Under the pieces are notes generated by a model. That model made no database searches. It was given only the letters and a program-made list of their open reading frames with translations, and was not told the origin of the DNA. Position numbers and translations under genes: made by a program. From the NCBI GenBank assembly GCA_014189895.1, contig BJFQ01000009.1, forward strand, positions 1 through 50,160: a DNA stretch of 50,160 nucleotides, in the 5' to 3' direction. The stretch is from Acidobacteriota bacterium (GTDB taxonomy: Bacteria > Acidobacteriota > Holophagae > Holophagales > Holophagaceae). The first letter of the stretch is position 1; each line of letters starts with the position of its first letter. This document shows, piece by piece, positions 12,929 to 26,505 of the stretch.

Positions 12929-13771
12929 ATGAATCGTTTTAAGTCTTTTATCCTGATTGTGGCCATGTCGGCCCTCTTGATGCTGATTGGTGATGTTTTT
13001 TACGGCCAACAGGGTCTCCTGATCGCTTTGGGTATTAGTATTTTGATGAATGGTATTAGTTATTTCTTTTCGGATCGCATGGTTTTAAAAGCCTATCGTG
13101 CCAAGATCATCACATCGTCTGATGATCCCCAACTTTTCGAAATGGTTCAAAACTTAGCTCGCCGTGCCCATCTACCGATGCCGCGTATTGCCATCATTCC
13201 TGATGACACTCCGAATGCGTTCGCTACGGGACGTAATCCGGAACGCGCCGTGGTCGCCGTGACGAATGGAATTCGTCGTCTCATGAATCGGGAAGAGCTC
13301 GAAGCGGTGCTGGCCCATGAACTGGGTCATGTCAGCCATCGGGATATTTTAGTCGGCTCTATTGCCGCGGTTTTAGCCCAAGCCATTATGTTTATTTCTC
13401 GAATGGCCATGTGGTTTGGTGGCTCGCGTGATCAAGAAGGACGCAGTTCGAGTCCTGTAGGGGCGATTGCCGTGATGATCTTAGGACCCCTCGCTGCGAT
13501 GATGTTACAAATGGCCCTGAGTCGTTCTCGTGAATTTATGGCAGATGAATTCAGTGCCACCGTCACCGGTCGACCGGATATGCTCGCCTCGGCCCTCGAA
13601 AAACTTGAGAATTTTAATCAACGCGTTCCCATGATGGATGCGGAACCGGCGACAGCGCATATGATGATTGTGAATCCGCTCTCCGGCGGTGGGCTCATGT
13701 CGTTATTTAGCACCCATCCCCCGGTCAAAGAGCGCATCAAGCGCCTTCGCGCGATGAGAGTCCGCGGCTAA
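12929..13771 (+). CDS. htpX: HtpX, membrane M48 zinc metalloprotease
   Basis: A 280-residue inner-membrane protease that degrades damaged membrane proteins. Two N-terminal membrane segments lie at about 6-22 and 28-46. The zinc motif HELGH is at 130-134 and the third ligand Glu is in SREFMADEFSA. Two further hydrophobic stretches lie between them. The C-terminus has STHPPVKERIKRL, typical of HtpX. Length is normal. The stop interlocks with the convergent ychF stop. The 202-base gap upstream holds A+T-rich sequence likely to contain its promoter, with no heat-shock element I can defend. Confidence 0.96.
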   Translation: MNRFKSFILIVAMSALLMLIGDVFYGQQGLLIALGISILMNGISYFFSDRMVLKAYRAKIITSSDDPQLFEMVQNLARRAHLPMPRIAIIPDDTPNAFATGRNPERAVVAVTNGIRRLMNREELEAVLAHELGHVSHRDILVGSIAAVLAQAIMFISRMAMWFGGSRDQEGRSSSPVGAIAVMILGPLAAMMLQMALSRSREFMADEFSATVTGRPDMLASALEKLENFNQRVPMMDAEPATAHMMIVNPLSGGGLMSLFSTHPPVKERIKRLRAMRVRG

Positions 13772-14868
13772 ACGTTAAACAGGAAATGCATGACGTCCCC
13801 ATCTTGGACGACATACTCTTTCCCTTCTGTTCGCATTTTTCCAGCGTCTTTAGCGCCTTGCTCGCCCTGATGTTCAATGTAATCCGCATAGGCAATCACC
13901 TGAGCTCGAATAAATCCTTTTTCAAAATCGGTATGGATCACGCCCGCCGCCTGAGGAGCTGTTGCGCCTTTAGGAATAGTCCAGGCGCGCACTTCTTTTT
14001 CGCCGGCCGTGAGATACGTCTGGAGACCTAAGAGGTCATAACTGGAGCGAATTAACGTATTCAACCCCGGTTCTTTGAGTCCCGATTCCTCGAGGAACAG
14101 AGGACGCTCCGAAGGATCGAGTTCTTGGATCTCTGCTTCCAGTTTGGAGCAGAGACCAATCACGGGCGCATGCCGCTCTTGAGCGAGTTGATGGAGACGA
14201 ACGAAATGAGGATTGCCCATGGGATTAGGAATGTCTTGTTCACTAATATTGCCGACAAAAAGGACTGGCTTGAGGGTTAGGAGTCCAAAAGATTTCACCA
14301 GAGCTCGATCGTCGGCTTTGAGACCTAGGGAACTCGCCGGCTTTCCGGCATTCAACACTTCTAAGATGCGCTGAAGGATCGCTAAGATAGCGATCGATTC
14401 TTTATCGCCTCCTTTGGCTGTTTTACTGTGTTTTTGGAAAGCTTTATCGACCGATTCTAAATCTTTAAGCATAAGTTCGGTTTCAATAATCTCGATATCA
14501 CGGGCGGGATCAACTGAGCCCTCCACATGTGTGACATTGGAGTCTTCAAAACATCGGCAGACTTGAACGATGGCATCCGTGTCTCGAATGTTCGCAAGAA
14601 AAGCATTGCCTAATCCTTCCCCCTTCGAGGCCCCTCGAACGAGCCCTGCAATATCCACAAATTCTTGACTCGCGGGAAGGATCCGTTCCGGGTGAACAAT
14701 GAGAGCTAAGGCCTCAAGACGTGCATCGGGAACATCCACCACCCCGGTGTTGGGCTCAATCGTGCAAAAGGGATAGTTGGCACTCGCCGCCCCCGCTCGA
14801 GTGAGCGCGTTAAAAAGCGTAGATTTACCCACATTGGGTAAACCGACAATGCCACAGGCTACGGCCAT
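13768..14868 (-). CDS. ychF: YchF/Ola1 family P-loop ATPase
   Basis: A 366-residue OBG-family nucleotidase that binds ribosomes and prefers ATP. The G1 loop is GLPNVGKST at 9-17, with [11 protein letters not shown] (switch I), [17 protein letters not shown] (G3), and a TGS-type C-terminal domain containing the conserved [15 protein letters not shown] segment. YchF proteins have NxxE rather than NKxD at G4 (VGNISEQD here), which explains the ATP preference. The start has a GAGGTGGAG site. It is divergent from the carrier protein gene at 14980 across a 111-base gap. Confidence 0.97.
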
Positions 14869-14979: not shown

Positions 14980-15222
14980 ATGATCGTTCGAACCCCCTGG
15001 AGTGGTCAAGTCGTTGAAGTACGCGTCCGCTTGGGTTCTGAGGTGGATGAAGACGAATCGTTGGTCCTCATTGAGAACAAAAGTATGGAGGGAATCCCGG
15101 AAGCAGTTTATGCGCCCATTGCCGGGGTGGTCCTTGAAATTCATGTCGAAGAAGGGGATCAGCTCCAAGTTGATGACGAACTGGTCACCCTCGAGGGCGA
15201 TGAGCCTGACGAGGACGCCTAG
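14980..15222 (+). CDS. Biotinyl/lipoyl-domain carrier protein, atypical loop
   Basis: An 80-residue single-domain protein of the biotinyl/lipoyl hammerhead fold: TPWSGQVVEVRVRLGSEV, then ESLVLIENKSME, then YAPIAGVVLEIHVEEGDQL. The likely swinging-arm residue is Lys34, in ENKSME, which is closer to the lipoyl pattern (DKxxME) than to biotin's MKM. There are 14 residues from that Lys to the AG of the second half, while the BCCP-like neighbour at 15257 has 10, so the loop is four residues longer than usual. The C-terminus is acidic. A GGGAGG ribosome site precedes the ATG. It starts an operon with the BCCP-like gene and enoyl-CoA hydratase. Whether it is modified is not known. Confidence 0.75.
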   Translation: MIVRTPWSGQVVEVRVRLGSEVDEDESLVLIENKSMEGIPEAVYAPIAGVVLEIHVEEGDQLQVDDELVTLEGDEPDEDA

Positions 15223-15256: not shown

Positions 15257-15469
15257 ATGAATTTTATTTGCGCCGAGATGGCCGGAAAAATACTCGAAAT
15301 TTGTATACAGGTCGGTGATCTCGTCGACAGCGACCAAGATGTGGTCGTTATGGAATCGATGAAAATGCAAATTCCGGTGGTCGCGCCGCGTGCGGGGCGT
15401 GTGAAGGCGATTGGGGTCTCCCAAGGTCAATTTGTGAACGAGGGCGATGCCCTTGTTGAACTCGAGTAA
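15257..15469 (+). CDS. Biotin carboxyl carrier domain protein
   Basis: A 70-residue stand-alone biotinyl domain. The biotinylation site is the canonical VMESMKMQ with Lys36, followed by VVAPRAGRVKAI and the second-half VSQGQFVNEGDALVELE. It is probably biotinylated by BirA and used by an acyl-CoA carboxylase. It sits 34 bases after the atypical carrier and six bases before an AUH-like enoyl-CoA hydratase. The only carboxyltransferase in the window is at 24.9 kb. No biotin carboxylase is present here. Confidence 0.88.
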   Translation: MNFICAEMAGKILEICIQVGDLVDSDQDVVVMESMKMQIPVVAPRAGRVKAIGVSQGQFVNEGDALVELE

Positions 15470-15475
15470 CAGGAC

Positions 15476-16255
15476 ATGATCGAGCGTCAGGACCTTCATG
15501 GGGATGAACAGGGCGTCGTGATTCTTTCCATGAATCGCCCCGAAGGAAAAAACGCCTTCAGCCGATCGTTCCTGGAATCTTTTCATCAGGCTATCAATGA
15601 ACTTGATGTCAATGAAACACGGTTACTCATTCTACGCTCTCACGTTCCGGGTGTTTTTTGTGCGGGAGCCGATCTCAAAGAGCGGGCTCAGATGACCGAT
15701 GCCGAAGTGGTTCAATTTCTCGATCGTTTAGGAAATCTCCTGATCCGTATCGAGGCCTTGCCCTTTCCCACGGTGGCCATAGTTCACGGTGTGGCTTTCG
15801 GCGGGGGTTTAGAATTAGCCTTGGCATGCGATCTGCGTATAGGGACCTCCTCCACGCAAGTCGGACTGACCGAAACCTCCATTGGGATTATTCCAGGAGC
15901 AGGAGGGACCCAGCGCTTAACCCGCTTGCTGGGGATGTCGCGGGCGAAACACATGATTTATACCGCGCAACGCATCTCAGTTGCAGAAGCTTGTGATCTT
16001 GGGCTTGTTGATGAGATCAGCACGAGTGAAGATGGAGAAAGCGAAGCACGTGGCCTCGCGCAACGCATACTCCGCAATGCACCCCTCGCGCTTCGGGCAG
16101 CCAAGCGCGCTATTCAAGAAGGACTGCTCGCCCCCCTTTCTGAAGGACTTGTCATCGAACGTCAACATTACCTCAGCCTCCTTCAGACTTCGGATCGTCA
16201 AGAGGGATTAGCGGCCTTTCGAGAGAAGCGTCCACCGCGCTTTGAAGGACGATAA
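15476..16255 (+). CDS. Enoyl-CoA hydratase, methylglutaconyl-CoA (AUH) type
   Basis: A 259-residue crotonase-fold enzyme. The acyl-CoA thioester is held by VPGVFCAGADLKERAQM (58-73), and the catalytic glutamates are Glu113 (GGGLELA) and Glu133 (GLTETSIG), 20 apart as in true hydratases. The sequence is close to mitochondrial AUH, methylglutaconyl-CoA hydratase of leucine breakdown: the FCAGADLKERA block, IIPGAGGTQRL and the C-terminal REKRPPRF all agree with it. Another enoyl-CoA substrate remains possible. It is in the carrier protein operon, next to the BCCP gene, which fits a biotin-dependent branched-chain pathway. Three bases separate it from the CDF gene. Confidence 0.9.
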   Translation: MIERQDLHGDEQGVVILSMNRPEGKNAFSRSFLESFHQAINELDVNETRLLILRSHVPGVFCAGADLKERAQMTDAEVVQFLDRLGNLLIRIEALPFPTVAIVHGVAFGGGLELALACDLRIGTSSTQVGLTETSIGIIPGAGGTQRLTRLLGMSRAKHMIYTAQRISVAEACDLGLVDEISTSEDGESEARGLAQRILRNAPLALRAAKRAIQEGLLAPLSEGLVIERQHYLSLLQTSDRQEGLAAFREKRPPRFEGR

Positions 16256-16257
16256 CC

Positions 16258-17241
16258 ATGCTGCATCTGCATTCCAATCACGGTTTGACGCTGCGTCGAT
16301 TATGGCTGAGCGCCCTAATTTTTTTCCTGAGCTTCCTCATCCAAGGCTTTGGGGGTTTTTTAACCGGCTCTATAGGATTAATCAGCGATAGTTTAGAAAA
16401 TCTCAACGATGTCTTCGTGAATACGCTCAGCATGGGCAGCCTGTGGGTCGCGCACAAACAAAGCCCCGATCATCGATGGCCTTATGGTCTTCACCGACTC
16501 GAAGTGGTGAATGGATTGATCGTGGTGATCTTGCTGGGTCTCTTTGGATTTTTCGTTGGTTCCGAAGCGCTCGATCGGCTCCAGAACCCCCAGCCAATTC
16601 AAACAGGAAAAGTCCTTCTCTTTGCCCTAAGCGGCCTCATTTTAAATCTTGTGGCGACCCGCATTCTCGTCCCCAACGAAGAGGACTTGGCTAAAAACAA
16701 TCTTAATTTGAAGAGCGCCTACATCCATGCCCTACTCGATAGTGTCACCAGTATTGTTTTGATGATCTCCATGGTCGTCATTCGTTTTACCGGTTGGACG
16801 TGGATCGATCCGCTCGTCGCTCTCTTGATTTTAAGCCTGATCGCCCGCGGCATGTTTGTGCTGCTGAAAGATATTCTGTCCATCTTGCTCCATTGGGCTG
16901 CCTTCAATCATCAGGAGGCGATCGATGACCTTAAAAAATTACCGGGAATCCTTGACGTCCAGGATATGCGCAGTTGGAAAATCTGCAGTCATTTAGCGGT
17001 CGCCACCGCCCATGTCGTGATCGAGGCGGAGCGCTTGGAGGAAACGGAAGCGTATCTGGAAGATATTGAACATCTCCTCTGGGAGAAATACAAGGTTCGT
17101 CATTTAACGATCCATTTTGAAAATCAAACGATGGCCGATCGCCATCATCATCTCTTCATTCATAATCACGACTCAGCCGGAGTCGAGGACCCCATTCATA
17201 AGGGTCCTCATCTCCATTCACATCCTCATCAACACGACTGA
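16258..17241 (+). CDS. Cation diffusion facilitator (CDF) metal efflux protein
   Basis: A 327-residue inner-membrane CDF transporter with about six membrane segments and a cytosolic C-terminal domain. The metal site in the second helix has SDSLENLND (Glu47 and Asp51 in the HxxxD-type spacing, so Glu replaces the usual His or Asp) and in the fifth helix HALLD (His157, Asp161). The end is rich in histidine (HHHLFIHNHD and HLHSHPHQHD), which fits zinc or related divalent ions. The AAGGA site is nine bases before the ATG. It follows the hydratase by two bases and may ride on its transcript, although the functions do not obviously match. Confidence 0.9.
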   Translation: MLHLHSNHGLTLRRLWLSALIFFLSFLIQGFGGFLTGSIGLISDSLENLNDVFVNTLSMGSLWVAHKQSPDHRWPYGLHRLEVVNGLIVVILLGLFGFFVGSEALDRLQNPQPIQTGKVLLFALSGLILNLVATRILVPNEEDLAKNNLNLKSAYIHALLDSVTSIVLMISMVVIRFTGWTWIDPLVALLILSLIARGMFVLLKDILSILLHWAAFNHQEAIDDLKKLPGILDVQDMRSWKICSHLAVATAHVVIEAERLEETEAYLEDIEHLLWEKYKVRHLTIHFENQTMADRHHHLFIHNHDSAGVEDPIHKGPHLHSHPHQHD

Positions 17242-24930: not shown

Positions 24931-26505
24931 GTGGGGTTACTCGATAACCTAGAAGATCTTTGCAAATCTTTTAGGAATCCCATGCAGGCTGATGATTTTA
25001 AAAAAATTAAAGACCGTGTTTTAAAGGGTGGATCTGAAAAAGACCACGCTAAAAACACCGCTCAAGGCAAACTCTTTGCCCGTGAGCGTATTGCCCGCCT
25101 CGTGGATGCAGGGTCTTTCATTGAAGACGGACTGCTCGCGAATGCCGTGACCCCTTCGCTTCCTGGTGATGGCGTGATCACGGGAACGGCTCTCGTCGCC
25201 GGCCGTGCGGTGGCCTTGATGGCCAACGATAGTACGGTCAAAGCGGGATCTTGGGGCGCTCGAACCGTTGAAAAAATCATTCGCATTCAAGAGGTTGCGC
25301 TTCGTCAACGAATTCCCATGTTGTATCTCGTCGACAGCGCAGGCGCTCGGATTACCGATCAAATTGATATGTTTCCCGGTCGTCGTCATGCCGGAACGAT
25401 TTTTCATAATGAAGTCGCACTCTCCGGGCTAGTGCCTCAGATCTGTCTCTTGTTCGGACCGAGTGCTGCCGGCGGTGCGTACATTCCCGCTTTCTGCGAC
25501 GTCGTCCTGATGGTCGAGGGAAATGCCTCGATGTATCTCGGCAGTCCGCGTATGGCCGAGTCGGTCATTGGAGAAAAGATCTCCCTGGAGGACCTGGGCG
25601 GCGCCAAGATGCATTGTTCGATCAGCGGATGTGGCGACTTTCTCTGCGCCAACGAAGAGGAAGCCATCGCGCTCTGTCAAAGGTATTTGAGCTATTTCCC
25701 CCAGCACTGCGAGGCCGAACTCCCGACGGTTGCCGCCCAAGGACCCCAAGCCCTCAAAGTTCCCATTGAGAAAATCGTTCCGGAAGATATTAATTCTCCT
25801 TTCCAGATGTACGACTTCATTAAAGGTCTCATCGATCAGGACTCATTTCTCGAAATCAAAAAACTCTTTGCGCCTGAATTGATTACCGGTCTGGCTCGTC
25901 TTAATGGATCGCCCGTAGGGATTGTCGCCAATCAACCGCGCGTCAAGGGTGGTGTGCTGTTTGTCGACTCTGCGGACAAAGCGACACGGTTTATTAATTT
26001 GTGCGATGCGTTTGGGATCCCTCTTATTTTCTTGTCGGACGTTCCCGGTTTCATGATTGGATCGGCGGTGGAAAAGCAGGGCATCATTCGTCATGGAGCT
26101 AAAATGATCAGCGCCATGTCAAGCTGCACCACCCCTCGGTTCTGTGTCATTGTTCGCAAGGCTTACGGGGCGGGTCTCTACGCCATGAGCGGTCCGGGTT
26201 TTGATCCGGACGCAACGCTAGCGCTGCCCACCGCTTCCATTGCTGTGATGGGTGCCGAGGCAGCCGTTAATGCCGTCTATTTTAATAAAATTCAAGAGAA
26301 GCCCGAAGCCGAGCGGGCTGATTACGTTGCGGCCCTTCAAGAAGAATACCGAGAAGACGTCGATCTTTTAAAGCTGGCTTCCGAACTTCATCTTGACGAA
26401 ATTGTTGCGCCTGAAGACTTACGAGCCAACCTGATTGCAAGAGTGGGAAGGGCCCAGCGGCGAGCGCTCTCTCCGGCGAAGCGCAAGTCGGTAACACCGG
26501 TTTAG
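24931..26505 (+). CDS. Acyl-CoA carboxylase, carboxyltransferase (beta) subunit
   Basis: A 524-residue carboxyltransferase of the AccD5/PccB/MccB family. The N-half reads GKLFARERIARLVDAGSF and GSWGARTVEKIIRIQE; the C-half has FLSDVPGFMIG and VIVRKAYGAGLYAM. The oxyanion glycines are in GPSAAGGAYIPAFCD and RKAYGAGLYAM. It is not the zinc-finger AccD of fatty acid synthesis. Methylcrotonyl-, geranyl- or propionyl-CoA are possible acceptors; the AUH-like gene at 15.5 kb favours the leucine pathway. The start may be GTG at 24931 or ATG at 24982, the latter with an AGGA site. A biotin carboxylase partner is not present in the window. Confidence 0.9.
   Translation: MGLLDNLEDLCKSFRNPMQADDFKKIKDRVLKGGSEKDHAKNTAQGKLFARERIARLVDAGSFIEDGLLANAVTPSLPGDGVITGTALVAGRAVALMANDSTVKAGSWGARTVEKIIRIQEVALRQRIPMLYLVDSAGARITDQIDMFPGRRHAGTIFHNEVALSGLVPQICLLFGPSAAGGAYIPAFCDVVLMVEGNASMYLGSPRMAESVIGEKISLEDLGGAKMHCSISGCGDFLCANEEEAIALCQRYLSYFPQHCEAELPTVAAQGPQALKVPIEKIVPEDINSPFQMYDFIKGLIDQDSFLEIKKLFAPELITGLARLNGSPVGIVANQPRVKGGVLFVDSADKATRFINLCDAFGIPLIFLSDVPGFMIGSAVEKQGIIRHGAKMISAMSSCTTPRFCVIVRKAYGAGLYAMSGPGFDPDATLALPTASIAVMGAEAAVNAVYFNKIQEKPEAERADYVAALQEEYREDVDLLKLASELHLDEIVAPEDLRANLIARVGRAQRRALSPAKRKSVTPV

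Follow-up and report, generated by a model that had tools for sequence, protein, structure and literature searches.

In model domains, shifting the lysine by a single residue abolishes both lipoylation and biotinylation. LbpA proteins are small and stand alone. One report describes them as lipoate-binding proteins that have the lipoyl fold but do not belong to the dehydrogenases (PMC6067878). Plant BADC proteins, as presented in a second report, are 25–30% identical to BCCP, lack the biotinylation motif and are not biotinylated; they are present beside the true BCCPs of heteromeric ACCase, bind carboxylase subunits, and are reported either to aid BC-BCCP subcomplex assembly or to act as inhibitors of the enzyme (PMC11926652). 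Our literature searches found no paper on Holophagaceae biotin carrier proteins, and among the matches listed for lysine-lacking lipoyl/biotinyl domains the family described here is not named.

Within a 50,160-nt stretch of genomic DNA (the window), we characterized a lysine-displaced, long-loop biotinyl-fold protein of 80 residues (P0001; 14980–15222, + strand, ATG start), hereafter the look-alike, delineated from its open reading frame, homologues and a structure model. It matches Pfam Biotin_lipoyl (PF00364) at 37.2 bits against a curated cut-off of 22.1, which places it in the superfamily and bears out the biotinyl/lipoyl fold named in the original prediction for this DNA. The loop reads E32-N33-K34-S35-M36-E37-G38-I39-P40, with the Lys34 codon at 15079–15081, and the whole hairpin loop region from E32 to P46 (ENKSMEGIPEAVYAP; 15073–15117, + strand) exceeds that of biotinyl/lipoyl domains by 3 residues. 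From K34 to G49 there are fourteen intervening residues, against ten between K36, the biotin-site lysine, and G47 of the neighbouring BCCP; the turn ENKSME and both spacings had been read correctly beforehand. Counted between anchors, E32 to P46 takes 14 steps in the look-alike and E33 to P44 takes 11 in the BCCP, so the loop is longer by three residues, and the earlier description of a lengthened loop can be refined to +3 residues between anchors with K34 displaced to E+2, where carriers have their lysine at E+3. We rejected an ordinary carrier with a misaligned lysine, since the E+3 residue is S35 and the residue eight before the anchor proline is G38, neither of them lysine. When the family profile was compared with solved structures, 54 of the 60 rows listed (from 68 matches, many of them duplicate or mutant entries for the same proteins) spanned exactly 3 residues fewer than the profile; two spanned 4 fewer, and the remaining four were half-domain or HlyD matches. 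The extra length is family-wide. Chance or assembly error as its source is ruled out by two congeneric genomes, which carry the look-alike at 90% protein identity to the window copy with dS values of 1.30 and 0.45.

An AlphaFold2 model of the look-alike reached a mean pLDDT of 85.8 from an alignment of 32 sequences (18 look-alikes and 14 BCCPs); the model leans towards the BCCP fold because of those BCCP rows, and an alignment of 15 close relatives without BCCPs gave a pLDDT of only 46. Foldseek and VIA-align superposed 69 residues within model residues 1–72 on Pyrococcus BCCP (2ejf, 2d5d) at 0.8–1.0 Å with Z 14, consistent with a barrel-sandwich fold as modelled with BCCPs in the alignment, and the three unaligned residues would correspond to the loop. 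The modelled strands cover residues 27–33 and 40–44 and leave a six-residue loop at 34–39, so K34 is predicted to sit at the base of the loop and not at its tip. The fold search also returned BesA and EmrA-type adaptors (Z about 12, rmsd 3.4–3.7 Å), which belong to the same fold class and offered no functional lead.

Outside the window's genus, none of the 45 full-length loci among the matches listed has a lysine in the stretch from the loop Glu to the Pro. These loci comprise 40 distinct sequences and derive from 47 listed, less one partial gene at a contig end (L102, kept within the 48 loci used for gene order) and one member of the window's genus (L101, counted separately). All 45 listed loci instead share the signature E-x-T-D-x-x-[RH]-[TS]-x-[FY]-[FY]-x-x-x-P, with T at +2, D at +3, R/H at +6, T/S at +7, F/Y at +9 and +10 and P at +14 relative to Glu, each in 45 of 45. 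An overlapping whole-genome set agrees, with 27 of 27 outside-genus loci free of a loop lysine and T-D present in 26 (A-D in L026). In the window's genus this signature is absent, and all three genomes carry the loop ENKSMEGIPE[AT]VYAP with Lys34 invariant. The lysine at E+3 in an A/S-M-K-M turn that marks a BCCP was thus found in neither group, the listed loci having T-D at E+2/E+3 (45/45) and the genus ENKS; nor was the conserved hairpin-tip lysine of lipoyl domains and H-proteins, which is missing from the same 45 loci and replaced in the genus by K34 at the loop base. The family has no conserved Cys, and the loop position occupied by His can also be Arg. The homologue search suggested with the original prediction recovered the long loop throughout the family, with Lys34 conserved only in the window's genus; homologues without a conserved lysine, named at the outset as the finding that would tell against the proposal, are what all 45 outside-genus loci among the matches listed proved to be.

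The window genome is small (1.17 Mb, 97.1% complete) and retains the look-alike gene. Of 77 genomes from the same taxonomic family, a family profile search picked up the gene in 72, the five misses being 64–83% complete; of 16 genomes from other families of the class, it picked up the gene in none. Contigs among the matches listed are labelled mostly Geothrix, Holophaga, Holophagaceae or Holophagales, with some labelled Acidobacteria only and one Deltaproteobacteria, and we infer that the host taxonomic family is Holophagaceae. Across a phylum sample of 199 genomes, family members scored 111–142 bits and no outside match exceeded 56 bits; the four outside-family matches inspected were all canonical EAMKM BCCP domains. 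Family proteins are 75–84 residues long. In a 41-row tree the look-alikes group together (92/88) and the BCCPs group apart (94/96), neither being placed beside the other, on few columns and with long branches; tandem duplication is thus no more than a possible origin. Eleven pairwise comparisons yielded dN/dS values of 0.04–0.13 within the window's genus (3 pairs) and 0.04–0.17 outside it (8 pairs); these are rough values, several dS exceeding 1, and by this measure the gene is under purifying selection. A pseudogene is contradicted by the same values. Since the signature is near-invariant without a lysine and dN/dS is low, the loop appears constrained, though not as an attachment site.

Because the family outside the window's genus lacks a lysine for cofactor attachment, the look-alike is very probably not a biotin or lipoate carrier. 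By analogy with BADC, our preferred reading, at a probability of roughly 0.55, is that it is a cofactor-free biotinyl-fold protein of Holophagaceae that works by binding a partner through its loop. A biotinyl/lipoyl-type domain would have exchanged the modified turn for a lysine-free loop that has three extra residues and the signature E-G-T-D-x-x-[RH]-[TS]-x-[FY]-[FY]-x-x-x-P. The protein would then carry nothing and act by binding, with the loop as its putative contact surface; for the narrower assignment as a protein-binding or assembly module we would give even odds. In the core family, an attachment lysine that is gone and a loop that is tightly constrained would be a clear instance of a carrier domain put to new use.

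The genes around the look-alike bear on which partner might be involved. Directly downstream is a canonical stand-alone BCCP (15257–15469, + strand; motif ESMKMQIP) that scores 93.0 bits against NF006079, just under the cut-off of 95, and 57 bits against Pfam; its closest NCBIfam model is PRK08225, which we take to be the YngHB type. An enoyl-CoA hydratase (ECH) gene follows (15476–16255, + strand), closest to NCBIfam PRK07657, presumably the YngF type, at 275.9 bits and below the equivalog cut-off of 363. Next comes a cation diffusion facilitator (CDF) transporter with a His-rich tail (16258–17241, + strand; TIGR01297, 200.4 bits), whose gene starts 3 bases past the final base of the ECH stop. 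On the other side lies a divergent YchF GTPase gene (13768–14868, − strand). The upstream divergent gene is YchF in 37 of the 48 loci among the matches listed, PNPase in 5 and neither in 6. Of these loci, 40 have 2.3 kb or more of sequence beyond the look-alike on its downstream side, the other 8 being too short to judge, and within 4.2 kb the 40 contain BCCP, ECH and CDF (26 loci), ECH and CDF (4), CDF (3), CDF and PyrC (2) or PyrC (5), again among the matches listed. Close relatives contribute many of the loci, so such counts are not independent, and because the neighbours vary between subgroups the neighbourhood names no function or single partner. The statement that the look-alike directly precedes a normal BCCP holds here and in most loci with the YchF gene order; the corollary that one operon encodes two different carriers is not supported. 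As a separate observation, some Geothrix-type genomes have a half-BCCP duplicate just after the BCCP gene, a stretch of about 35–38 codons that lacks the motif's ESM and matches a BCCP's C-terminal half at 83–92% identity (L066:8552–8665, L068:8550–8663, L073:8550–8663, L083:7056–7160, L088:8560–8670 and G034:C1:952923–953039).

The look-alike also persists in genomes for which the search gave no stand-alone BCCP like the neighbouring one. Such a BCCP (at least 126 bits) turned up in 8 of 23 genomes; the remaining 15, where it did not, all retain the look-alike. Some of these 15 genomes are fragmented or incomplete, but five (G007, G010, G016, G023 and G031) reach 97% completeness or more, and other BCCP-type domains were matched among the 15. 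G031 (98% complete) has its best BCCP match in a frame of 702 residues that lies 3.7 kb from a carboxyltransferase; its BCCP is therefore probably fused, and the look-alike is kept. The single-contig genome G010 gave no AccA match and a carboxyltransferase match of only 102 bits. In that genome, at about C1:2202867–2206634, carboxyltransferase and BCCP-type matches each fall in a 1900-residue frame, apparently the same one, which suggests a single-chain acyl-CoA carboxylase. The AccA subunit of heteromeric acetyl-CoA carboxylase went undetected in the three reduced genomes from the window's genus (G000, G001 and G002), where AccA matches are weak cross-hits, some just over the Pfam cut-off, inside acyl-CoA carboxyltransferase frames. 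We rejected a strict link of the look-alike to heteromeric ACC or to the BCCP next to it, as the gene is still present in genomes where the searches did not find these.

A bolder reading, less likely than not, is a bacterial BADC counterpart that serves as a family-wide core protein, in which a swinging-arm carrier domain would have become a dedicated binding or signalling module; its loop (T-D-x-x-[RH]-[TS]-x-[FY]-[FY]) would recognise a specific partner or ligand, or bear a modification on a residue other than lysine. It is unlikely that the look-alike is a BADC-like assembly or regulatory subunit dedicated to a carboxylase that uses the neighbouring BCCP. The precedent of plant BADC (PMC11926652) speaks for such a subunit, as do BCCP and ECH genes that both lie downstream of the look-alike in 28 of the 48 loci among the matches listed, short ones included. 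The window also encodes an acyl-CoA carboxyltransferase about 10 kb downstream (24931–26505, + strand; PF01039, 488 bits; nearest to the mmdA model, whose cut-off its 408.8 bits do not reach), which may be the enzyme that works with the BCCP. Against a dedicated subunit, however, stand the 15 of 23 look-alike genomes, some fragmented or incomplete, in which the neighbouring-type BCCP was not found, the retention of the look-alike in G031 with its probably fused BCCP, and the AccA and carboxyltransferase results for G010.

The CDF gene is the commonest of the neighbours sought, lying within 4.2 kb downstream in 35 of the 40 assessable loci among the matches listed, in YchF-type and PNPase-type surroundings alike. 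This association could point to an accessory of the metal transporter, acting in metal buffering or transporter gating, yet we regard that role as quite improbable: five of the same 40 listed loci have PyrC and no CDF match, the family offers no conserved Cys and a loop His that interchanges with Arg, and the many close relatives among the loci mean that the counts are not independent.

A carrier restricted to the window's genus, with Lys34 biotinylated or lipoylated there and either gained or ancestral and lost elsewhere, has in its favour the invariance of Lys34 and ENKSMEG in the genus (3/3 genomes) and the presence of the modifying enzymes, but we consider it decidedly doubtful. The window genome has one PF03099 match (biotin ligase; G000:C30) and one PF21948 match (LplA/LipB; G000:C17), and its canonical substrates are an E2 lipoyl domain with STDKV (G000:C2), a BCCP domain with EAMKM (G000:C5) and the BCCP of the window. 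With single matches, both provided with ordinary substrates, the PF03099 and PF21948 searches bring no special extra ligase into view, and each ligase is already accounted for by canonical targets. K34 moreover lies at E+2 in a six-residue loop and not at E+3 in a tight turn, neither an A/S-M-K-M nor an E-x-D-K motif is present, and a lysine occurs in 0 of 45 relatives among the matches listed. The YchF protein tree is compatible with either polarity, with p-AU 0.429 for all other genera as one group; in the best tree the window's genus falls weakly with three genera of the same YchF gene order (support 65/98), and this shared gene order would favour a derived rather than ancestral ENKS loop. 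The simplest view is that Lys34, at the base of the loop, is incidental. The original prediction had left open lipoylation, biotinylation by a special ligase or no modification at all; the single ligase matches and the 45 of 45 listed loci without the lysine favour the last, and the first two found no support at the level of the family. In a side observation, the LipB-like octanoyltransferase of the window genome (L150; G000:C17:14618–15184, in a 369-residue frame) runs into an apparent Nudix hydrolase domain, as judged by eye, and LipB frames of similar length (355–384 residues) occur in four other genomes.

A functionless decaying duplicate of BCCP is scarcely credible: the lysine motif is indeed lost and the family departs from BCCPs at the functional site, but dN/dS is 0.04–0.17, the gene is found in 72 of 77 genomes, and the loop signature is near-invariant outside the window's genus.

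The fold adopted by the look-alike is often annotated as a biotin or lipoate carrier, and the protein warns against attaching such labels to small proteins. Among known systems, it resembles stand-alone BCCPs (PRK08225 type; Bacillus subtilis BLAP, 1z6h; Pyrococcus BCCP, 2d5d) in fold, size and where the glycine and Glu anchors lie, with 26–36% identity to 14 BCCPs of its own family. It differs from them in a loop 3 residues longer and in lacking both the A/S-M-K-M motif and a conserved lysine. The lipoyl domain of 2-oxoacid dehydrogenase E2 shares the fold, and the look-alike loop Glu-Gly aligns over the E-G-D-K of E2, but the E-x-D-K lysine is absent and the loop is longer by 3 residues (4 relative to two E2 rows). 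Unlike LbpA, which is reported to be lipoate-binding, the look-alike has no loop lysine outside one genus. Plant BADC, set beside it here by description, likewise has a BCCP-like domain without the biotinylation motif; in contrast, the look-alike is bacterial, stand-alone and 75–84 residues long, with a longer loop.
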